Source: Chitinophaga sp. 180180018-3 (GTDB taxonomy: Bacteria > Bacteroidota > Bacteroidia > Chitinophagales > Chitinophagaceae). From it: a DNA stretch of 64,000 bases. Location of the stretch: assembly GCF_037893185.1 (NCBI RefSeq), contig NZ_CP140772.1:7432001-7496000 (forward strand), read 5' to 3'. The notes below the pieces were generated by a model. The model was not told the DNA's origin. It saw only the letters and a list, made by a program, of their open reading frames with translations, and did not search any database. Of this stretch, positions 2,813 to 33,742 are shown one piece after another. How positions within the stretch are numbered: the first letter of the stretch is position 1; the number at the start of each line of letters is the position of its first letter. The position numbers were made by a program, and so were the translations under genes.

Positions 2813-3005
2813 TGAGGTCTTCTGCCTGATGAATAGCGTCCCTTTGCTCTTTTGTAAATTGTACCGACAATGTGATTATTTCATTCTTCTCATCGGCTTC
2901 TATGATTTCTGGCGTTATTTCTTGGCTGCATAAAAGATTGGCAACTTCAACAATAATTGCTACTGGGACTTCCAGGTCTTTTTCGATAATTGTTTTCAAT
3001 GGCAT
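2766..3005 (-). CDS. Small acidic hypothetical protein
   Basis: 79 residues ending in an extreme acidic tail (EEEDDDEEDE). The front part alternates hydrophobic and acidic segments without a motif I recognise. The 3' end overlaps the excisionase-like gene, and the reading frames are staggered as in compact element operons. It is first in the minus-strand run leading to the recombinase. It could be a small regulator or a DNA-mimic-like protein, but nothing in the sequence settles this. Confidence 0.55.
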   Translation of the reverse strand: MPLKTIIEKDLEVPVAIIVEVANLLCSQEITPEIIEADEKNEIITLSVQFTKEQRDAIHQAEDLIDDYHEEEDDDEEDE

Positions 3006-3256
3006 GTGTGTAAGGATTAGTGAAACAATAGTTCGTATACTCCTTAAAGCATACAGATTTCAATACAAACATACTATGCCCACCAAGCCCACTTTCCCTT
3101 ATTTGATCGAATGTGCTCGAATTAGCTCAAATTTTTCTGAATTTGTACAAATTTTCCATTTCTGGGGGCCACAATGAATTCTGAGGGCATAAATATCCTC
3201 GTTGAAATGCTAAAAACGCAGGTTCACTTCATTGATGACCGCTATTTACGCACCTG

Positions 3257-3490
3257 TTAAACATATTTAACCCCCATTAGAAGATAATAGAAGATAATAG
3301 AGATGTTGTCGTATCTGATGATATTTATTGCCTCTGGTGTAATATGTGGATAAGCTACGAGTATATCCTGCACTGTTTCACCGCTTGATAATCTTTCCAA
3401 TATTAACTCAACAGTAATACGTGTACCTTTAATTACGGGTTTACCCAGCATAACCTTTGGATTGATATCTATGTATTGTGTTATGTCCAT
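3257..3490 (-). pseudogene. DUF433 antitoxin-like protein with damaged C-terminus
   Basis: The N-terminal 50 residues match DUF433 closely: INPKVMLGKPVIKGTRITVE, then ILERLSSGETVQDILVAYPHITPEAI. In this family the sequence normally continues into an Ala-rich helix; here it turns into IIRYDNISIIFYYLLMGVKYV, which looks out of frame. Next to this stretch is a 10-bp tandem duplication (AAGATAATAG twice, 3281-3300), a plausible frameshift source. The usual partner, a DUF5615 PIN-like toxin, is absent downstream. An orphan, probably decayed toxin-antitoxin remnant. Confidence 0.6.
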
Positions 3491-3611
3491 TTATTCAAGA
3501 TTTGATAAAGGAATCGCCGACCAGGGAAAGCCAGCGGAGGAGACACAAATATAGTCCTGCCGGCTAGGAAGAATCAATAACTGGGTTAGTTGCTATACAT
3601 TGATAGTAATA

Positions 3612-3878
3612 TTATTGTGGCAAAAGTTCCGTTCTGTCGGTGTCTGCCTGATAGTAGACTTCATTCATCACCTCAATAATTTTCTGTTTTTCCGCATTAC
3701 TGAGTGACGGAATAACTTTTCTGCTATCGGTTGGGTGTGGTTTGTCTCTTCCGCGCATTTTACGATAGAATGTAGGAGTACTCCAATTACATTCCTCACA
3801 AACCCTCTCCCTGAAGGTGACCGGTAGCTTTGATAACATTGTATGTATTTGTAACAAAGTATTTACGGATTTATTCAT
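3612..3878 (-). CDS. Hypothetical small protein, possible HTH
   Basis: 88 residues with no recognised family. The central segment (LPVTFRERVCEECNWSTPTFYRKMRG) has the spacing of a helix-turn-helix, and the C-terminal part (NAEKQKIIEVMNEVYYQ) is helical, so a DNA-binding or element-control role is possible. It stands alone between the DUF433 remnant and another small gene, in the same orientation. Function is not assigned. Confidence 0.5.
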   Translation of the reverse strand: MNKSVNTLLQIHTMLSKLPVTFRERVCEECNWSTPTFYRKMRGRDKPHPTDSRKVIPSLSNAEKQKIIEVMNEVYYQADTDRTELLPQ

Positions 3879-3931
3879 AATGCTATTTTGTATTGTTATT
3901 AATAGATTGATTCTACGGATGGCGATGTAGT

Positions 3932-4231
3932 TTATCCACCGAGTTTATTGGGTCTTTTTACCCTCTTAACGCCTTTCCTTATAAGAAAGAAGTTTGCCTC
4001 AAGCAGCTTTTCCACATCGCCAACAAATTCGATAGTGTTCAATAAATCCGGATTATTATCTGGAAGATTATTTAATAGTAGCGTAAAGTGATCATGAGCA
4101 GCGAGAAGATTGTAGATACTGAAGAACTCTTTTAATACGGATATCGGGGCTTTCATTTCGCCGGCGGTTAGCCTAAACGGTTTCTCTACACGGGCCTTTT
4201 TCTGTGAGCCTGTTTGTTGTTTTTCTTTCAT
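3932..4231 (-). CDS. Hypothetical protein, basic ends and helical core
   Basis: 99 residues. Lys/Arg-rich N-terminus (MKEKQQTGSQKKARVEKPF), a helical centre (ISVLKEFFSIYNLLAAHDHFTLLLNNL) and a very basic C-terminus (RKGVKRVKRPNKLGG). I do not recognise the family. Such small basic proteins are frequent next to recombinase modules in Bacteroidetes islands. Confidence 0.5.
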   Translation of the reverse strand: MKEKQQTGSQKKARVEKPFRLTAGEMKAPISVLKEFFSIYNLLAAHDHFTLLLNNLPDNNPDLLNTIEFVGDVEKLLEANFFLIRKGVKRVKRPNKLGG

Positions 4232-21418: not shown

Positions 21419-22693
21419 TCAGCGTTTTTTTCCCAGAAGGTTAATCTGAAAGGATACACCGGCAGAGTACAGTTTAACCTGTCCAATCCCCACCCCACGA
21501 AGGGGAATTTTTGCATATGGTTGCACCCCAACAATGAGCCGTTTTCCTGCGGGATGCTGGTATAAAGCACCTACATTAAGAATGGCCAGATAGTGCTGGT
21601 TCTCATTTTCCACCGTTTTTTCCCAGTCGGGGTAGGTCTTATAGATATACTGATACTTCTCTTTCAACATCAGGTAATTAGAGATCCCAAGGGTAGCACT
21701 CAAAGTATTATTGTTCCTTTCCAGGAAGGTATAATTAAGGTTCACAGGAATGTCGAGTACATCGCAATCGGCATTTACTTTTACAAGATCATTGTTAACA
21801 GATCCGCCCGGCGTTTTATAATCTTTATTCGTAGCACCATAAAGCTTCTTACTATAAACCGCACCGGTAGTAACGAACCAGTGCCTGTTAAAATAATAAT
21901 GAGCAAGCAGTCCCACATTGAAGCCCACTTTACCGTAATTAAAAGAAGGAGCAACATTAAGATCCGGTCCCAGGGTAACTCCAAAATAAAGCCCTTTGGC
22001 ATTGATTTTTCTACGATTTTTTTTTGCGGTCGAATCCTCTGTAATGCCTGTTTTTACTGGTATTTCGTAAGGTTTGTTTATTTTCGTATACCCGTTAAGG
22101 TTATAGTCTTTTATCGTTACGGGAATGCTGGTAAACTGGCTATTATTTGTTTTTGTATAATTATCCGGAAGACGGATAACCGATTTATTCTCTTCTTTAA
22201 TATTATCATCACCGGATGTATGTCCCGGATGTATGTTGTTTCCGGCAGACATTACCGTTTGTTCATCAGCAGGTTTATTTCTTCCTATAGTAGCGGTATC
22301 GTTGTTTTGATTGACAAAAACGGTTTTATTATTGCTTGTGGCTTGTTGCCTGCCTGTTTTGGTTGTTTTGGTTGTTTCACGTGAAACGACGCCGGCATCA
22401 GTATGATTTGGCGCTTTGGAAAGCTGCATGGTATCTGTACGGCTGCTTTGGGGGGATGCAGGTGCCTGCACAACGGCCTCCACATTATTCTCGTTAACAC
22501 CAATTGATTGAATGCTCCACCAAACCAGTCCACCGAGAATCGGCAACAGCATTAGCCACCACCATGCAACTGGTGTTTTAGGCTGATTATCTGCATCAAG
22601 CAACGCTTCCATTTTCGTCCAGGCATCCTGGTCAAATGGAATGTCAGCTTCATTCAGCTTGTTACGGATACTATTTTCAAATTCGTCATTCAT
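21419..22693 (-). CDS. Sigma-associated membrane protein with beta-barrel C-terminus
   Basis: 424 residues. The N-terminal cytoplasmic part (about 1-40) is followed by a membrane span (VAWWWLMLLPILGGLVWW), a long Ser/Thr/Asn-rich linker, and a C-terminal part (about 235-424) of alternating aromatic strands (YFGVTLGPDLNVAPSFNYGK, AHYYFNRHWFVTTGAVY) typical of the Bacteroidetes outer-membrane beta-barrel family. The start overlaps the upstream ECF sigma gene by 8 bp, the usual sigma/anti-sigma-like pairing in this phylum. A parS-like site (22373-22388) lies inside the linker coding sequence. Confidence 0.8.
   Translation of the reverse strand: MNDEFENSIRNKLNEADIPFDQDAWTKMEALLDADNQPKTPVAWWWLMLLPILGGLVWWSIQSIGVNENNVEAVVQAPASPQSSRTDTMQLSKAPNHTDAGVVSRETTKTTKTGRQQATSNNKTVFVNQNNDTATIGRNKPADEQTVMSAGNNIHPGHTSGDDNIKEENKSVIRLPDNYTKTNNSQFTSIPVTIKDYNLNGYTKINKPYEIPVKTGITEDSTAKKNRRKINAKGLYFGVTLGPDLNVAPSFNYGKVGFNVGLLAHYYFNRHWFVTTGAVYSKKLYGATNKDYKTPGGSVNNDLVKVNADCDVLDIPVNLNYTFLERNNNTLSATLGISNYLMLKEKYQYIYKTYPDWEKTVENENQHYLAILNVGALYQHPAGKRLIVGVQPYAKIPLRGVGIGQVKLYSAGVSFQINLLGKKR
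22373..22388. other. parS-like site 1
   Basis: TGTTTCACGTGAAACG, 15 of 16 identical to the bacterial ParB-binding consensus TGTTTCACGTGAAACA. It is within the coding sequence of the sigma-associated protein. Confidence 0.75.
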
Positions 22694-23597: not shown

Positions 23598-25466
23598 CTA
23601 TCTTCCCATATAAACCATCAGGATCTGTACGTCGCTCGGATTTACTCCACTGATCCTGCTGGCCTGACCTAAAGTGTGTGGTCGTATTTTGTTAAATTTT
23701 TGTCTCGCTTCATTTGACAAGGAAACCAGTTTTCCGTAATCGAAATTTGCTGGTATTACCAGATCTTCCAACTGGCTCATTTTCTGAACAAGCTCGTTTT
23801 CCTTTTCGATGTATACATCATACTTGATCTGAATTTCTGCCTGTTCCAATGTTTCATTATTGAAAGCCACCAATGCCTGACCTATTTTTTCAACCCTGTC
23901 TTTCATAGAAAAAATATCCAGGCCGGGTCTTAACAGGATCTGATGGGCTTTTTGTTTTTGCGTAAGTGGCGCAGAAGCGCGGTCGGCCAGTAGTGAACTG
24001 ATCTCCTCCGGCTCAATGGAAAGTTCCTTTAGTATGCGCTTGATTTGTTCTACTCCCTGTCGTTTTTCCTGTACCCGTTGCATCCTTTCTTCTGATGCCA
24101 ATCCCATTTTGTAACTTCTTTCTGTTAATCTGAGATCAGCGTTATCCTGCCGTAACAGCGTTCTGAATTCAGCACGGGAAGTGAACATCCGGTATGGTTC
24201 TTCCGTTCCTTTGTTGATCAGATCGTCTATCAGTACGCCTATATAGGCTTCACTTCTTTTCAGGATAAATGGATCCAGCTCCCTTGATTTAAGGTGTGCA
24301 TTGATCCCAGCCATGATACCCTGACAGGCCGCCTCTTCATACCCTGTGGTACCGTTGATCTGGCCAGCGAAGAAAAGGTGCTGAATCTGCTTTGTTTCCA
24401 GGGAAAACTGCAATTGGGTAGGTGGAAAATAATCGTACTCAATAGCGTATCCGGGCCTGAACATACGGCAGTTTTCAAATCCGGGAACCAGGCGAAGCGC
24501 TTTCATTTGTACCTCTTCCGGTAAGGAGGTAGAGAACCCGTTTACATAGATTTCCACTGTGTCCCAACCTTCCGGTTCTACGAAGAGCTGGTGTCTTTCC
24601 CGCTCAGCGAAACGGTTGATCTTGTCTTCAATACTAGGGCAGTAACGCGGTCCGGTTCCCTGAATTCTCCCCTGGAACATAGGAGAACGGTCAAAGCCGG
24701 TACGAAGCATTTCATGTACAGCCTCGCTGGTATATGTGATCCAGCAGCTTCGTTGCTGAGCTGGTTTAATTTTTTCGATGTCGAGGTAAGAAAACCCTAT
24801 AATCTCATCGTCTCCTTTCTGTTCCTCCATTTTGGAGTAATCAAGACTCCGGCCATCAATTCGGGGAGGTGTACCTGTTTTCAGGCGATCACTTTCGAAA
24901 CCCAATGAAACCAGTTGTTCTGTGATTCCGGTTGCAGCCTTCTCAGCCACTCTTCCCCCACCAAATTGTTTCTCGCCGATATGGATTACTCCATTCAGAA
25001 AGGTACCATTAGTGAGTACAACCGCTTTAGCTTTTATCTCATGCCCTAACCCGGTAATTACCCCATAGCATCTTCCATCCTTCACTAAAAGTCCTTTTAC
25101 CATATCCTGGTAGAAATCGACGTTTGGTGTTTTTTCCAATGCTTCTCTCCATTTTGCAGCGAACAGCATACGGTCGTTTTGTGTACGAGGGCTCCACATG
25201 GCAGGTCCTTTTGAGCGGTTCAGCATACGAAACTGGATCATAGACTGATCTGTAACAATGCCAGAATAACCACCCAGGGCATCTATCTCCCTTACTATCT
25301 GTCCTTTTGCGATCCCTCCCATAGCAGGGTTGCAACTCATCTGAGCAATGGTTTGCATATTCATGGTCACCAATAATACTTTGGAGCCCATATTGGCGGC
25401 AGCAGCAGCAGCCTCACAGCCTGCGTGCCCGGCGCCTACAACAATTATATCGTACGATGGAAACAT
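23598..25466 (-). CDS. mnmG: tRNA uridine-5-carboxymethylaminomethyl modification enzyme MnmG
   Basis: 622 residues from the MFPSYD start at 25466. The frame extends to 25550, but that extension translates the parS-like palindrome (MFHVEHLT) and a -7 box, so it is not coding. The FAD-binding Rossmann motif VGAGHAGCEAAAAAA is at the N-terminus; GGRVAEKAATGITEQL, FKTGTPPR-like LKTGTPPRIDGRS and the C-terminal GIDEAR-type GQASRISGVNPSD follow. With MnmE it modifies U34 of tRNAs. mnmG (gidA) often lies near the replication origin, in accord with the parS sites here. Confidence 0.96.
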   Translation of the reverse strand: MFPSYDIIVVGAGHAGCEAAAAAANMGSKVLLVTMNMQTIAQMSCNPAMGGIAKGQIVREIDALGGYSGIVTDQSMIQFRMLNRSKGPAMWSPRTQNDRMLFAAKWREALEKTPNVDFYQDMVKGLLVKDGRCYGVITGLGHEIKAKAVVLTNGTFLNGVIHIGEKQFGGGRVAEKAATGITEQLVSLGFESDRLKTGTPPRIDGRSLDYSKMEEQKGDDEIIGFSYLDIEKIKPAQQRSCWITYTSEAVHEMLRTGFDRSPMFQGRIQGTGPRYCPSIEDKINRFAERERHQLFVEPEGWDTVEIYVNGFSTSLPEEVQMKALRLVPGFENCRMFRPGYAIEYDYFPPTQLQFSLETKQIQHLFFAGQINGTTGYEEAACQGIMAGINAHLKSRELDPFILKRSEAYIGVLIDDLINKGTEEPYRMFTSRAEFRTLLRQDNADLRLTERSYKMGLASEERMQRVQEKRQGVEQIKRILKELSIEPEEISSLLADRASAPLTQKQKAHQILLRPGLDIFSMKDRVEKIGQALVAFNNETLEQAEIQIKYDVYIEKENELVQKMSQLEDLVIPANFDYGKLVSLSNEARQKFNKIRPHTLGQASRISGVNPSDVQILMVYMGR

Positions 25467-25484
25467 AATAACTCTAAGAAAATG

Positions 25485-25492
25485 CAAAATTA
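25485..25492 (-). promoter_or_regulatory. TAATTTTG -7 box of mnmG
   Basis: On the minus strand TAATTTTG fits TAnnTTTG and lies 18 bp before the MFPSYD start, so it also supports that start over the longer frame. No clear -33 box. Confidence 0.45.
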
Positions 25493-25527
25493 CGGAGAAG
25501 AAGGCAGATTGCAGACAGAAAGTAAGA

Positions 25528-25543
25528 TGTTCCACGTGGAACA
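25528..25543. other. parS-like site 2
   Basis: TGTTCCACGTGGAACA, a perfect 16-bp palindrome of the parS type, in the mnmG upstream region. Confidence 0.75.
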
Positions 25544-25664
25544 TTAGCACTCCTTAAATAGAGTAAGGAATACCTATAGTCTTGAAAAGCGATCCAGGTC
25601 ATTTTACAATTGTATCCTATTTAACCAGCTCATAAATCAACCTCATTCATAACCCTAAAAGCAA

Positions 25665-25680
25665 TGTTTCACGTGGAACA
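25665..25680. other. parS-like site 3
   Basis: TGTTTCACGTGGAACA, 14 of 16 as palindrome and matching the parS consensus except one base. Confidence 0.75.
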
Positions 25681-27433: not shown

Positions 27434-27449
27434 TGTTCCACGTGAAACA
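27434..27449. other. parS-like site 4
   Basis: TGTTCCACGTGAAACA, one base from the consensus TGTTTCACGTGAAACA. Confidence 0.75.
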
Positions 27450-27470: not shown

Positions 27471-27486
27471 TGTTCCACGTGGAACA
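27471..27486. other. parS-like site 5
   Basis: TGTTCCACGTGGAACA, identical to site 2 and only 21 bp from site 4; 36 bp from the end of ybeY. Confidence 0.75.
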
Positions 27487-28106: not shown

Positions 28107-28343
28107 ATGAAAAAAGGCATGATTAAGTTGTCAGCTCTTACAACAGGGAAAAGCGCAGTAATTATTGAATTTGCAAAAGACGATCTTCATATAAAACTGA
28201 TGGAAATGGGTTGCGTACCTGGTGAAACAGTGAAGGTGGAAAAAATAGCTCCCCTTGGAGATCCCATATCAATCATGGTTGCCGGTTATAATTTATCGCT
28301 TCGAAAAACAGAAGCAGATCATATTTGGGTAGAGGAAATTTAA
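28107..28343 (+). CDS. feoA: FeoA domain protein
   Basis: 78 residues, a single FeoA SH3-like domain: LSALTTGKSAVII, then IKLMEMGCVPGETVKVEKIAPLGDPISIMVAGYNLSLRKTEADHIWV, matching the MGCVPG(x)n-GDP pattern of the family. FeoA assists the ferrous-iron permease FeoB. No feoB follows; instead 1.5 kb of non-coding DNA lies downstream, so it stands alone. It has a good promoter of its own. Confidence 0.9.
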   Translation: MKKGMIKLSALTTGKSAVIIEFAKDDLHIKLMEMGCVPGETVKVEKIAPLGDPISIMVAGYNLSLRKTEADHIWVEEI

Positions 28344-28346
28344 ATT

Positions 28347-28543
28347 TTATCCACGTTTTTTCACTTCTCTTCTATATTTCGACGAGATTTTATCCCAAAA
28401 AAACAAAAAAATTTTTTTTAAAAAAGTGCTTTTTCGAAAAAATAGACCCTTTTTTGTCAAATTTTCCACATTTTAGCTCCAGAATCGCTTTTTTCAAAGA
28501 AAAACTCTCATTTCTATTCTTTTCGGAGGCTCATTTATCCACA
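28347..28543 (+). other. Minor DnaA-box-like cluster
   Basis: TTATCCACG at 28347-28355 (8/9), TTTTCCACA at 28462-28470 (8/9) and TTATCCACA at 28535-28543 (9/9 to TTATNCACA), all in the same orientation within 200 bp of AT-rich DNA. Confidence 0.5.
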
Positions 28544-28950
28544 TTTCTGGCTAAAAAACACTATTTCCTACCAAAAAATTTTCACGGCAAAAAAACATGA
28601 AACACAACGCAGTGTTTCATACTCCATCTTTGTTGAATTATGCGAAAATCAAGCCTTGAGAATCGCGTAAAAAAGCAACATACGGGGTTATGCAATGAAC
28701 AATCCTGAAAAATGAATTCTCAGCCGCTAATAAAAGCGGCTGGATTCAAATAATTGTTTCGTCCAGTCTCTTCCCTAAGTACAAAGCATCCACAGCATCC
28801 TCCCAGTGCTTCAACAATCCAATATTTCTGGAAATCCCGGGGGGGTGAGGGGAAAATCCTGAAAGATTCATTGTCAGAGCAATTGCCAGGCGTCGTAGAT
28901 GTCTTCTAAAATAGTTTCTCATACTTTATACAGAAAAATACATTTCTATC

Positions 28951-28985
28951 CAATTCTACACGCCCTGATAAGGCGCTGAGAATTG
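28951..28985. repeat. Palindromic repeat unit
   Basis: CAATTCTACACGCC, loop CTGATAA, GGCGCTGAGAATTG; the arms pair at nearly every position. Confidence 0.65.
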
Positions 28986-29113
28986 AATAAAACATCCTCA
29001 CTCCTGCTTAATAAAAATGCTCACAAAATATTCGATTCTCAACGCCTTCCGTGTGGCTTTAGAACGAGATATAAAAATCTCCTGCAAATCTGCTTCCGAT
29101 TGGAATTAGAATA

Positions 29114-29153
29114 TTGAATTCTCAGCGCTTTAGTAACGCGTTGAGAATCGAAT
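29114..29153. repeat. Palindromic repeat unit, best-preserved copy
   Basis: TTGAATTCTCAGCGC, loop TTTAGTAAC, GCGTTGAGAATCGAA. Arms pair except two positions. Confidence 0.7.
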
Positions 29154-29235
29154 GAAAATAGATTATCTGCACATACCCCAGTATAGGAGCCAATCTCAGC
29201 TGCCTATGAGCGCGTTTAGGATTGAACGAAAATAA

Positions 29236-29260
29236 AAATGCCGGGGTAACCCCGGCATTT
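29236..29260. terminator. Perfect GC-rich hairpin
   Basis: AAATGCCGGGG, loop TAA, CCCCGGCATTT: 11-bp perfect arms, only a short T-run on either side. It could terminate transcripts crossing the array in either direction. Confidence 0.45.
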
Positions 29261-29780
29261 CATAAAATATTCAATTCTCACAGCCCTCTTAAAATCACTA
29301 TGATAAGTCCTTTCCAGCCCTATAACCGACTAAAATCACTAAAACGACCTCAACTCTTAACAATACCCAGCCTCTTTTAAATTGGCCGCAATTCACAATG
29401 TCAATATTTCCCCGAAAAAACGAAGCCTCTGAGAATCACATGAAACTCCCAATCGTTCCATTCCCCCACATACGGAAAGAATATCGAATTCTGAACGCCT
29501 GTTCCCAATCCCTGCTAATATCATAGCTGGAAAGTTTGTACGATATCCAACCCGGCAGCGCACCAAATTTTGAAATCTCACGCTGCTGGTATGCCTCTGA
29601 GAATTGAATATTCGTTTCTTTTCACGGCATACCCCAAAGAGGATTTTATATTCCTGATTCTCAGCGTCCTGGAAAATGGTTTCTAAGAGTTTCCGTTCAT
29701 TAAAAATTGGCGGAACAAAAAAGGGGGACCTCAGGTATGCATAACACACTGGTACTTAATCAATTCTGAAAAAATAAAAA

Positions 29781-29807
29781 GCCGTGAGAATATCAAAATC
29801 TCACGGC
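29781..29807 (-). terminator. Terminator of nadA
   Basis: GCCGTGAGA (29781-29789) and TCTCACGGC (29799-29807), followed on the minus strand by TTTTTATTTTTT. Confidence 0.85.
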
Positions 29808-29877
29808 CTTCGCAAAAAAGAAGTGCTATTAGTTCAAGAAAAGATTCAAAATAAAACTGAAAATCAATAAGTTATAC

Positions 29878-30885
29878 TTATAATCCAGCTCTTGCACTGA
29901 TTTCCAGCATACGTTCAATAGGCTTTTTGGCTGCTACGCGTAAAGCTTCATCCATAGTAATCTCTGGCTGCTCATACTCCATGCACAGATATAATTTTTC
30001 CAGCGTATTCAATTTCATGTGAGGGCAATCATTGCAGGCACATGCATTATTTGGAGGAGCTGGTATAAAAGTCTTATGAGGATTCTCTTTCTGCATCTGA
30101 TGAAGTATTCCTGTTTCTGTAACAACGATATACTCCTGGGCATCATCTTTCTGGCTGAACTTTAGTAGTCCTGTAGTAGATCCGATATAGTCAGCTATTG
30201 CAAGCACAGCCGGTTCGCACTCAGGATGTGCGATCACCCTGGCTTTAGGATGACGCACTTTTAGTTTGGTTATTTTCTCCAGTGAAAAAATTTCATGTAC
30301 CATGCAGGCTCCGTTCCACAACACCATATCCCTTCCGGTCTTCTTGATCAGATATGAACCCAGGTTTCTGTCGGGTGCGAAAATGATTGGTTGATCTGCC
30401 GGCACGCTTTCAATTATCTTCTCAGCATTTGAGCTCGTGCAGATAATATCACTCAGCGCTTTGATACCTGCAGAGCAGTTGATGTAGGAAATCACGATAT
30501 GATCGGGGTATTTATCGCGAAACTTTTTGAACAATTCCGGTGGAGCACTATCGGCCAAAGAACATCCGGCTTTAAGATCCGGCAACAGCACCTTTTTCTG
30601 AGGGCTCAGAATTTTTGCCGTTTCAGCCATAAAGTGTACTCCGGCGAAAACAATAATATCTGCATCTGTTTTTGCGGCCTGCTGGCTGAGCCCCAGACTA
30701 TCTCCAATGTAATCTGCGATATCCTGAATATCCGGCTCCTGATAATAGTGTGCCAGGACAATTGCATTTTTTTCCTTTTTCAGATTTTCGATCGCTGCAA
30801 ATAAATCCAGAGAGGGATCAACGGCTATATCCAAAAATCCATTTCGTTGCAAATTTTTTTTCGCTTCAGCGATTTCCATAATCAT
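29878..30885 (-). CDS. nadA: Quinolinate synthase NadA
   Basis: 335 residues. It condenses iminoaspartate with dihydroxyacetone phosphate to quinolinate in NAD synthesis. The three conserved cysteines for the [4Fe-4S] cluster are present: Cys108 in KAGCSLADS, one in GACMVHE and one in ACNDCPHM. Other family blocks are [22 protein letters not shown] and [21 protein letters not shown]. The start may be Met1 (30885) or Met3. It lies alone, divergent from ppiD across the proposed origin. No nadB or nadC is nearby. Confidence 0.96.
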
Positions 30886-30944
30886 GACTATATATTTATT
30901 TATTTATTTAAAAGAAAAGCCCACTACTATTAGGGCTGTGAATA

Positions 30945-31544
30945 TGTGGAAATTTAATTTCCGGCCTGTATACAAATGTAGTTGTTATTCTTTTTTACTT
31001 CGCTTTCCACATTAAATTAACACGCTATTTCCGCGTCAATACTGGCTTTTCCTGTTTTCATCCACATACGTGGATATCGTTGTTAGTGAAAATCTTTTTA
31101 CTTGTTGGTGTATTAGGAAATTGTTAAAACATCGCATTTGCTATCCACAATTTCGGTCTTCTTGTTTTAAGGGTAAATTTAACCACAATAACAAAATTAG
31201 TTTTACCAGTTCAAAAAGGCTGGTTTTCCCACCTTATTTTACGTTTTACAGGGGTTTTTACACATGAATTGTGGAAAAAAAACGGCTGGAGGTTCAAAAT
31301 GGTCGGAATGCATGTAGTCGCGGATTTGCCCCTTTTTATTCACATTTTTATGTGAATTGGGAAATCCACACTTTTATCGATTTGTGAATAAATGTTTACC
31401 CCGGGTTTTCTGCAGATTTTATGTAAAAACCAGCTGCGACTGGCTTTTCAAAATAAAAGACTGGCGGAAAAAAGCACCCTCGGAAATGGGGATATCTGTG
31501 GAAAAATTGTGAATCATAGGATATCCACCAAAGTGTTATACACA
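30945..31544. other. Major DnaA-box-like cluster
   Basis: Matches to TTATNCACA. Full matches: 31336-31344 (+), 31383-31391 (-), 31536-31544 (+). Eight of nine: 31058-31066, 31141-31149, 31179-31187, 31256-31264 (+), and 31270-31278, 31497-31505, 31508-31516 (-). Weaker ones at 30945, 31003, 31351 and 31362. By a rough count less than one 8/9-or-better hit would be expected by chance in this length. Confidence 0.65.
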
Positions 31545-31588
31545 GTCGAAACCCTTTGCTGTATTGGGTTTGATGATAAAAAATACTC

Positions 31589-31621
31589 TTTTGCAGTTAC
31601 AGTTATTTTATTCTATTTTTG
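31589..31621 (+). promoter_or_regulatory. Bacteroidetes-type promoter of ppiD
   Basis: TTTTG at 31589-31593 and TATTTTTG at 31614-31621, 20 nt apart, 30 bp before the start codon. Confidence 0.7.
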
Positions 31622-31651
31622 CTTTCCTTAAAAATGTAGACTATATAATAT

Positions 31652-33742
31652 ATGTCAGTAATTCAGAAAATCAGGGACAAATACGCCGTCGTGATCGTTG
31701 TAGTGATTTGCCTGGCTATTGTTAGTTTCCTGTTACAGGATGCCTTTTTTGGCAAAAGTTCTTTGTCCCGTCGAAGTACGAGTGTGGGTAAAGTAAATGG
31801 TGAAGATCTCGATCTCTCAGAGTATCAACGCCGTATTCAGGACGCGGAAAATATTGCCCGTCAGCAAATGCCTAATATTGACGAGCAGACCCGTCAATAC
31901 ATTCGCGAACAGGTTTGGAACGAGTTTCTGAATGAACAAATCATGCAGGCTCAGTATAAGAAACTGGGCATTGTGGTAACCGAAGCTGAGATTGTAGATC
32001 AGATCAAAGGAAAAAATCCTAATCCTATAGTTGTTCAGCAATTTACCCGCGATGGTCAATTCGACCGTAATGCGCTGCAACAGGCTGTTTCTCAGGCAGG
32101 TACCAATCCGCAGATCCGCGAAGGCCTGCATCAGCTGGAAAGCTATATTGCTAAATACCAGGAACATCTTAAATACACTACTCTCCTTAAACAGGGTGTA
32201 TATTATCCTAAATGGTTAGCCAAGCAACAACAGGAAGACAACAGCCAAACGGCTACAGTATCTTATGTTAATGTGCCCTACGCTACTATCGCGGATTCTA
32301 CCATTAAAGTAACAGACAGCGAACTGGATCGCTTTATCCAGGAGCATAAACAGCTCTTTAAAGTAGAAGAATCCCGTAAAGTGGAATATGTTTCTTTCGA
32401 TGCCATTCCATCTGCTAAAGATTCTGCTGCAGCCATCCAACAGATTGTTGGGCTGAAACATGAGCTGGATACCACCAAAGATGTGGCTGGTTTCATTAAC
32501 AGAAACTCTGATATTAAGTACTACGACGGATATATTTCTAAGAACGAAGCAAAGGTTCCTCAGAAAGATTCGATTGTAAACCTTCCAGTGGGCGCTATTT
32601 TCGGACCTTATTATGATAATAACCTGATCGTTTATGCGAAAATGGTTGATCGTAAAAATATGCCGGACAGTGTAAAGGTGCGTCACATTCTGATTGCATC
32701 TGGTGGTCCTCAGGGCGGACTACCTGACTCGGTAGCCAAAAAACGCGCAGATAGCCTTGCTATCGCTGTAAAAGGCGGAGCAGACTTTAAAGCGCTGGTT
32801 GCTCAGTTCTCCGACGATCCGGGTAGCAAGCAAACAGGTGGAGAATATGATTTAACTCCTTCTTCCCAATTTGTACCTGAGTTTAAAAACTACGCGCTGG
32901 AAGGACCTAAAGGTGAAACTAAGGTTGTAAAAACCCAGTTTGGTTACCATGTAATACAGATCATGGAACAGAAGAACATAGGTCCGGCTATCAAAGTGGC
33001 TTACCTGGGTAAATCTGTAGAAGCCAGCAAAGAAACAAATAACACCGCTTATGGTGCTGCCAGCGATTTTGCTTCAAAAAGCCGTTCTGCCGCTGCTTTC
33101 GAGAAAACTGTGCAGACAGAAAAGCTGAACAAGAGAATTGCTGATAACGTTCGTCCGATGGATTTTGTAATTCCTGGTATTGGTCAGTCACGCGAACTGG
33201 TTCGTTGGGCGTATGATGCGAAGAGAGGAGATGTAAGCAATGTATTTACTTTTGATGATAAATATGTTGTAGCTGTATTAACCAGCGTTCGTGAAGAAGG
33301 AACAGCTCCACTGGCGGATGTAAGGCCGCAGGTAGAAGCAGAGGTTAAAAAGCATAAGAAATCTGAACAGATTATTGCTAAACTCCAGTCTCCTGCTTCT
33401 CTGGATGCGGCTGCTAAAACTACCAACCAGCCTGTGCTGAAAGCAGAAGGAGTATCTTTTGCTACTCCATTCATAGCTTCTCTTGGTTTTGAACCACGTG
33501 TAACGGGCGCTGCTTTCAATAAGAAATGGGGTACTGCTGCAGTATCTGCACCTATTGAAGGAAATGGTGGTGTATATGTAATTAAAGTAGACAGTTTCCA
33601 GCCTGCGGCGCAACCGGGCCAGGATGTTGCTTCTCAACAGGCTGCTTATGAGCAGAGTGTTAAAGCAATGATGGATCAGCAACTGTTTGAAGTATTGAAG
33701 AAGAAGAGCAATGTGAAAGACACCCGCGGTAAATTCTTCTAA
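31652..33742 (+). CDS. ppiD: PpiD/SurA-type peptidyl-prolyl isomerase
   Basis: 696 residues, anchored by one N-terminal membrane span (VVIVVVICLAIVSFLLQDAFF, positions 13-33). A SurA-N-like helical chaperone part (about 50-210) precedes a parvulin domain at about 340-440 (VKVRHILIASGG...GADFKALVAQFSDDPGSKQTGGEYD...FGYHVIQIME) and a C-terminal dimerisation-like part. It acts in the periplasm on outer-membrane protein folding. Length is near that of E. coli PpiD (623) with a longer insert, as usual in Bacteroidetes. Followed by a terminator. Confidence 0.92.
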   Translation: MSVIQKIRDKYAVVIVVVICLAIVSFLLQDAFFGKSSLSRRSTSVGKVNGEDLDLSEYQRRIQDAENIARQQMPNIDEQTRQYIREQVWNEFLNEQIMQAQYKKLGIVVTEAEIVDQIKGKNPNPIVVQQFTRDGQFDRNALQQAVSQAGTNPQIREGLHQLESYIAKYQEHLKYTTLLKQGVYYPKWLAKQQQEDNSQTATVSYVNVPYATIADSTIKVTDSELDRFIQEHKQLFKVEESRKVEYVSFDAIPSAKDSAAAIQQIVGLKHELDTTKDVAGFINRNSDIKYYDGYISKNEAKVPQKDSIVNLPVGAIFGPYYDNNLIVYAKMVDRKNMPDSVKVRHILIASGGPQGGLPDSVAKKRADSLAIAVKGGADFKALVAQFSDDPGSKQTGGEYDLTPSSQFVPEFKNYALEGPKGETKVVKTQFGYHVIQIMEQKNIGPAIKVAYLGKSVEASKETNNTAYGAASDFASKSRSAAAFEKTVQTEKLNKRIADNVRPMDFVIPGIGQSRELVRWAYDAKRGDVSNVFTFDDKYVVAVLTSVREEGTAPLADVRPQVEAEVKKHKKSEQIIAKLQSPASLDAAAKTTNQPVLKAEGVSFATPFIASLGFEPRVTGAAFNKKWGTAAVSAPIEGNGGVYVIKVDSFQPAAQPGQDVASQQAAYEQSVKAMMDQQLFEVLKKKSNVKDTRGKFF

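Follow-up and report, generated by a model that had tools for sequence, protein, structure and literature searches.

Several bacterial systems offer a comparison for the locus described here. Some origins of replication lie near gidA (mnmG), with origin-proximal parS sites. DnaA boxes also form clusters such as datA of Escherichia coli and those of Bacillus subtilis, bipartite origins occur in B. subtilis and Helicobacter pylori, and DnaA can act as a transcription factor. The DoriC 10.0 article (PMC6323995) records an oriC adjacent to gidA in some Gammaproteobacteria. In B. subtilis and its predicted relatives, the basal unwinding system (BUS) of oriC consists of tandem DnaA boxes, a GC spacer that is short, NAN trios that number three or more and start with GAT, and AT-rich DNA beyond (PMC8287927). 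The same article gives a search rule (box with up to two mismatches, spacer of up to 16 bp, a minimum of three NAN trios) and GAT as the commonest box-proximal trio, and describes an assay for DnaA-dependent strand separation, which requires boxes as well as trios. Here, we analyzed a 64,000-nucleotide stretch of the Chitinophaga sp. 180180018-3 chromosome (hereafter the window, positions 7,432,001 to 7,496,000 of a single 8,131,986-bp contig), and we conclude that the gap between nadA and ppiD is almost certainly the chromosomal replication origin with its unwinding module. The locus shares with the BUS the tandem boxes, the short GC spacer, the trios starting with GAT and the AT-rich DNA. 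Unlike the BUS, the predicted Chitinophaga module lies between nadA and ppiD, 668 kb from dnaA, and its later trios read TAT, CAT and CAC. As at origins of the gidA/mnmG type, mnmG, parS and the origin lie within 9 kb, but nadA, a feoA-like gene and ybeY stand here between mnmG and the box cluster.

The preliminary description of this DNA had reported at least three exact matches to the DnaA box TTATNCACA and seven with one mismatch, on both strands, within 30945–31544, in a non-coding gap between the divergent genes nadA and ppiD. Our scans returned the same count, and both genes were confirmed.

30886..31651, no strand: very probable oriC, the 766-bp non-coding nadA–ppiD region, 11 boxes with at most one mismatch, 3 of them exact (box scans)
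29878..30885, minus: nadA, quinolinate synthase, between the two box groups
31652..33742, plus: ppiD/SurA-type peptidyl-prolyl isomerase gene
31336..31344, plus: exact DnaA box TTATTCACA (exact-match scan)
31383..31391, minus: exact DnaA box TTATTCACA (exact-match scan)
31536..31544, plus: exact DnaA box TTATACACA (exact-match scan)
31058, 31141, 31179 and 31256, plus: one-mismatch DnaA boxes (scan with at most one mismatch)
31270, 31497 and 31508, minus: one-mismatch DnaA boxes (scan with at most one mismatch)

An eighth one-mismatch box (30937–30945, minus strand) straddles the left edge of 30945–31544, and the TTATNCACA box at 31383 is invariant across nine aligned Chitinophaga. A dense box cluster is expected of an oriC, and the background was taken from the same genome: 40 stretches (800 kb) held 746 boxes with at most one mismatch, that is, 0.56 per 600 bp, and the densest 600 bp held 5, as compared with 10 in 30945–31544. 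The Poisson probability of at least 10 boxes is 5e-10 per window, or about 0.004 when multiplied by the number of possible window starts in the genome. When the 766-bp gap was resampled 2000 times with a first-order Markov model, the mean was 1.2 and the maximum 6 boxes, the observed number being 11. Over the whole window, boxes with at most one mismatch were not in excess (72 vs 68.6 expected) and exact boxes were modestly so (6 vs 2.6 expected, with 6 reached in 2 of 100 shuffles). This indicated that the signal is the cluster itself. An apparent strand bias of the genome's boxes is best taken for an artefact of their order in a list, both strands being present in the sampled stretches. A smaller group of five boxes with at most one mismatch, one of them exact, was seen at 3005–4016, about 27 kb from oriC.

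The preliminary description had overlooked what lies at the nadA end of the cluster, namely a run at 30922–30953 made up of two boxes, the spacer GCC and four DnaA-trios and leading into an AT tract. The AT-rich tract that it did place at 30889–30910 is present and corresponds to (TATT)5.5.

30937..30953, minus: tandem pair of DnaA boxes sharing one base, 30945–30953 with two mismatches and 30937–30945 with one (sequence)
30934..30936, minus: GC spacer of 3 bp, GCC, separating the box from the first trio (sequence and alignment of nine Chitinophaga)
30922..30933, minus: four DnaA-trios, CTA ATA GTA GTG on the minus strand, that is, 3'-GAT TAT CAT CAC-5' on the plus strand
30886..30919, no strand: AT-rich tract beyond the trios (sequence)

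Read on the minus strand toward nadA, the order is box cluster, tandem pair (30953–30937), spacer, trios (30933–30922) and AT-rich DNA as far as the start of nadA. The B. subtilis module is very similar in sequence. In the nine aligned Chitinophaga the four trios are unchanged and the outer box of the tandem pair is variable. Set against the published BUS rule, the locus has a one-mismatch box, a 3-bp spacer and four trios, with GAT next to the box. The module pattern TWMACANNCNTAATARTA has a single match in the 8.13-Mb genome, the present one, and the reversed control has none; a further trio module at the ppiD end or at the feoA-side boxes was considered and set aside, the sole genome match of this pattern being the module at 30.9 kb. 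As expected of an oriC, the sequence places an AT-rich stretch (30886–30919) beside the boxes, and this tract is likely the first DNA to be melted. The host DnaA, in an alignment read by eye, retains the helix-turn-helix motif GGRDHTTV, the arginine finger and the equivalent of B. subtilis Ile190, whose roles are those given in PMC8287927. We consider that the module would be a new member of the published kind.

GC skew was sampled in 40 stretches of 20 kb plus the window rather than at every base. On one arm, at 3.8–7.43 Mb, all 15 stretches had negative skew. On the other, which starts at 7.50 Mb and continues over the contig ends to 2.6 Mb, 15 of 17 had positive skew, the other two giving −0.003 and −0.006; eight stretches at 3.0–3.7 Mb, roughly opposite the window, scattered around zero. 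The sign change falls inside the window, in the nadA–ppiD gap. A skew minimum far from 31 kb had been named beforehand as an outcome that would speak against an origin here. The cumulative minimum over 124 contiguous kb, a local minimum, is at 31069, within the box cluster.

The parS-like sites and the mnmG gene announced within 9 kb of the cluster were also found, the former as four 16-mers and one weaker copy. The 16-mer TGTTYCACGTGRAACA occurs four times in the genome, each time between mnmG and ybeY in the window, 3.4–5.4 kb from oriC. The genome has one ParB match, at 805 kb, and thus combines an encoded ParB with four of four 16-mers within 5.4 kb of the origin.

25528..25543, no strand: parS TGTTCCACGTGGAACA, overlapping the 5' end of the mnmG open reading frame (ORF) as listed from GTG
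25665..25680, no strand: parS TGTTTCACGTGGAACA
27434..27449, no strand: parS TGTTCCACGTGAAACA
27471..27486, no strand: parS TGTTCCACGTGGAACA
22374..22387, no strand: weaker parS-like core GTTTCACGTGAAAC inside an outer-membrane gene, not matched by the 16-mer
23598..25550, minus: mnmG (gidA)

Comparison with relatives, which had been proposed as a check, showed that the gap, its boxes and the module before nadA recur. In all 33 rows having both genes, the nadA–ppiD gap measures 751–766 bp and carries 8–13 boxes; these rows represent 32 genomes, our own included and strain E66 counted twice. Alignment of the nine Chitinophaga over the full gap showed that the CCCTAATAGTAGTGGG block does not vary and that several boxes keep their positions. 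Of 80 nadA loci (named records), 27 had a looser module pattern, always in the roughly 200 bp that precede nadA; the rest of the 1.38 Mb of these loci had none. Two loci (L042, L076) bear near variants that fall outside the looser pattern, and the remaining ones include Sphingobacteriaceae, Saprospiraceae and cyanobacteria. A scan of family genomes blind to nadA gave a module match in 96 of 195. Of 29 relatives' loci from that scan, 19 had nadA within 1.5 kb and 3 had ppiD only. Ten family genomes were then sampled for skew at the module match, in near and far stretches. In nine, 20-kb skew turned from negative to positive there, several weakly, and the cumulative minimum lay within 0.5 kb of the match in three and 4–14 kb off in the others.

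Some observations weigh against this reading, in the window or across the family. A DnaA domain is encoded at 8,130,965, 668 kb from the gap, so the origin would not be next to dnaA, a position that is common rather than defining. The reversed pattern matched 44 of 195 family genomes, and the pattern alone is therefore weak proof away from nadA. Neither nadA nor ppiD was within 1.5 kb at 7 of the 29 loci, the match of L139 reads away from nadA, and that of G174 has no nadA within 20 kb. The skew figures of the ten genomes have no random-position control; several of the values near the match are tiny, and G173, G004 and G174 misfit in their far samples. One genome (G085) shows no skew switch at its match and no skew arms in 24 sampled stretches.

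One could suppose that the boxes form a DnaA-regulated promoter region for nadA and ppiD, the origin being elsewhere. Boxes between divergent genes would suit such a role, as would DnaA acting as a transcription factor, but the skew switch in the gap, the single trio module, the parS cluster and a box count above that of the other sampled places make it very improbable. Even less credit can be given to an origin at dnaA (8.13 Mb) with the nadA region as a secondary DnaA cluster. The gene sits at the contig end, which means that the circle was cut there, but skew is positive on both sides (+0.074 at 8.11–8.13 Mb, +0.020 at 0–20 kb), both flanking stretches belong to the sample whose best 600 bp held 5 boxes, and the module has no match there. 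Collectively, the skew switch, the single trio module, the parS cluster and the conservation before nadA support the origin proposed in the preliminary description.

At this origin, DnaA would load on the box cluster from 31544 down to 30937, and the tandem boxes at 30937–30953 would seat it beside the GCC spacer. A filament would then extend on the plus-strand trios from 30933 to 30922 and melt the AT tract from 30919 to 30886, where the helicase would be loaded. ParB bound to the four parS sites 3.4–5.4 kb off may gather new origins. We infer DnaA binding, melting, ParB action and the titration discussed below from the sequence. If correct, this assignment locates oriC in a genome whose contig was opened next to dnaA, offers box, spacer and trios before nadA as a sequence rule for finding oriC in related drafts, and provides for this lineage an exact unwinding module open to test.

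Side observations were made in relatives. G085 is an 8.4-Mb single-contig family member, whose incoherent skew would point to heavy rearrangement or an assembly fault. L138 (G176:C227) has two module matches at 1203–1268, on opposite strands, 65 bp apart and beside nadA, as if doubled. In five loci of Sphingobacteriaceae type (L089, L092, L104, L106, L108) the box count likewise peaks before nadA, and parS lies about 6.2–6.3 kb beyond; L070 has a trio-like run before nadA. The nadA origin may predate the Chitinophagaceae.

The unusual part of the finding is likely a further set of boxes on the far side of nadA, toward feoA. Arrays were surveyed in 33 genomes besides the window and the named loci, plus four unselected genomes, of 79 Chitinophaga. 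In the window, a three-box group sits at the homologous place of the phased arrays of relatives, with distances of 115 and 73 bp, or 11.0 and 7.0 turns at 10.45 bp.

28347..28543, plus: three-box group in the nadA–feoA gap (28347, 28462, 28535), one exact, single strand (box scan)
28107..28343, plus: ORF that we take to be feoA-like, a name given from its sequence and not from a family library (translation)

Relatives carry far longer arrays. L043 has 18 boxes in a row between nadA and feoA, on one strand, 52 or 61–63 bp apart; G250 and G206 reach 20 apiece, again on one strand, and the DNA there contains no open frame of 150 codons. The 35 nadA–feoA gaps contain 299 boxes, of which 226 run antisense to nadA, vs 160 of 355 in the oriC gap, and 17 of the 35 gaps hold at least 7 antisense boxes. 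Distances between adjacent same-strand boxes (n=88, three long arrays left out) peak at a period of 10.4–10.5 bp with R 0.66, random placements in the same 32 gaps reaching 0.38 at most in 500 trials. Spacings of about 51, 62, 72 and 103 bp share a helical period and not a single repeat length; oriC-gap boxes peak instead at 11.4 bp. Like datA and the B. subtilis clusters, for which DnaA titration has been proposed, the arrays of many relatives put several boxes outside the minimal origin; the window, with three boxes, retains a trace of them. Unlike those clusters, they lie about 1–10 kb from oriC, mostly on one strand and with helical spacing, count up to 20 boxes in a row and, in one clade, fall inside coding sequence.

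This coding array resides in the gene of an outer-membrane beta-barrel protein with a variable linker.

21419..22693, minus: outer-membrane beta-barrel gene with variable linker, without exact box in the window's own copy

Linker arrays of 4–9 boxes were found in G198, G200, G205, G229, G231, G236, G263, G257 (E66, frame-shifted copy), G196 and G218. Their boxes are antisense to the gene in 67 of 70 cases, and the gene is on the strand of nadA in all nine genomes having nadA on the same contig (G198 is the other). In the three genomes read, the boxes are translated as V-[D/N]-[K/N], and the rest of the linker is dissimilar. Synonymous shuffling (32 genes, 5000 shuffles; G257, G196 and G218 left out, and G206, G250 and G177 without the gene in the stretch) left exact boxes above every shuffle in five genomes (G200 8, G236 8, G198 7, G205 6, G229 7). 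The excess was weaker in G263 (p 0.012) and G231 (p 0.02); of the remainder, one gene had one box (p 0.15) and the other 24, among them that of the window, had no exact box. Such an excess over synonymous shuffles indicates that in the linker arrays the DNA, rather than the protein, seems to be under selection. The window's own linker carries the parS-like core instead of exact boxes.

Linker genomes were first chosen by an exact-pair scan, which 40 of 79 Chitinophaga matched, and four unselected genomes were then added. Two of the latter had linker arrays (4 and 7 boxes), one had one box in each place, and the fourth had four reverse-orientation gap boxes and no outer-membrane gene in the stretch. 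Fourteen stretches were fetched, among which L244, holding none of the genes, was left out, as were 20 loci listed by the exact-pair scan. Two further propositions were dropped. Helical phasing of the coding array is not claimed, R being 0.61 at 10.5 bp over 48 distances and 0.29 over unique ones. Mutual exclusion of the two array types amounts to one evolutionary contrast, since the 8 linker-array genomes and the 26 others fall on opposite sides of a 34-row mnmG tree.

We lean slightly toward the view that Chitinophaga keep beside oriC a same-strand, one-face array of DnaA boxes, a reservoir or filament platform that could be exchanged between gap and coding linker, with a protein gene doubling as a replication-control element. 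The same-strand boxes beyond nadA would bind DnaA in a cooperative manner along a single helix face, buffering or titrating free DnaA, and this is probably what the second box group does beside the origin. Several points tell against it. In the window the group has only three boxes. R drops to 0.43 over unique distances, those of related genomes being non-independent. The array is not universal: for example, G232, G265, G220, C. cymbidii (L044) and GbtcB8 (L042) have at most three boxes in either place, and the four exact gap boxes of G226 have the opposite orientation.

In another reading, which we judge unlikely, the array would be just a minisatellite that happens to contain the box, and the coding array just a repetitive protein, with no purposeful DnaA binding. 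Duplication of a unit pair, about 124 bp long, did give rise to the long arrays, spacers two units apart being 60–74% alike; duplication yields one-strand orientation by itself, and relatedness of the genomes inflates the phase signal. But boxes were kept while spacers are 41–56% alike on average (the units being chosen by their box, this is partly built in), the varied spacings have a common helical period, not one repeat length, and exact boxes beat all 5000 synonymous shuffles in five genomes. An equally doubtful reading is a bipartite origin, in which the box groups flanking nadA, present in the window and in many relatives, would both be needed for opening: some species with the first group have almost nothing of the second, and no module match accompanies it in the window's own genome. 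Should the array hold as a DnaA reservoir or platform, arrays ranging from none to about 20 boxes would be natural variants for studying how the timing of initiation depends on DnaA titration. The coding array, if true, would be unusual in that replication sites are under selection within a gene.

Minor observations concern the same regions. Two-mismatch boxes added no clear phased ladder in the window's nadA–feoA gap. The GCTGAGAATTGAAT element of this gap was considered as origin-specific and discarded, five paired and three single one-mismatch copies being found elsewhere in the genome. Chitinophaga sp. E66 (G257; L047, L239), at 65% completeness, has one TGA in nadA, and the boxes of its outer-membrane gene shift frame, which looks like sequencing error. 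Finally, several degenerate GCTGAGAATTGAAT-like copies, in both orientations, lie in non-coding DNA at 28650–29810 of the window, and the element is also present in the L043 gap.
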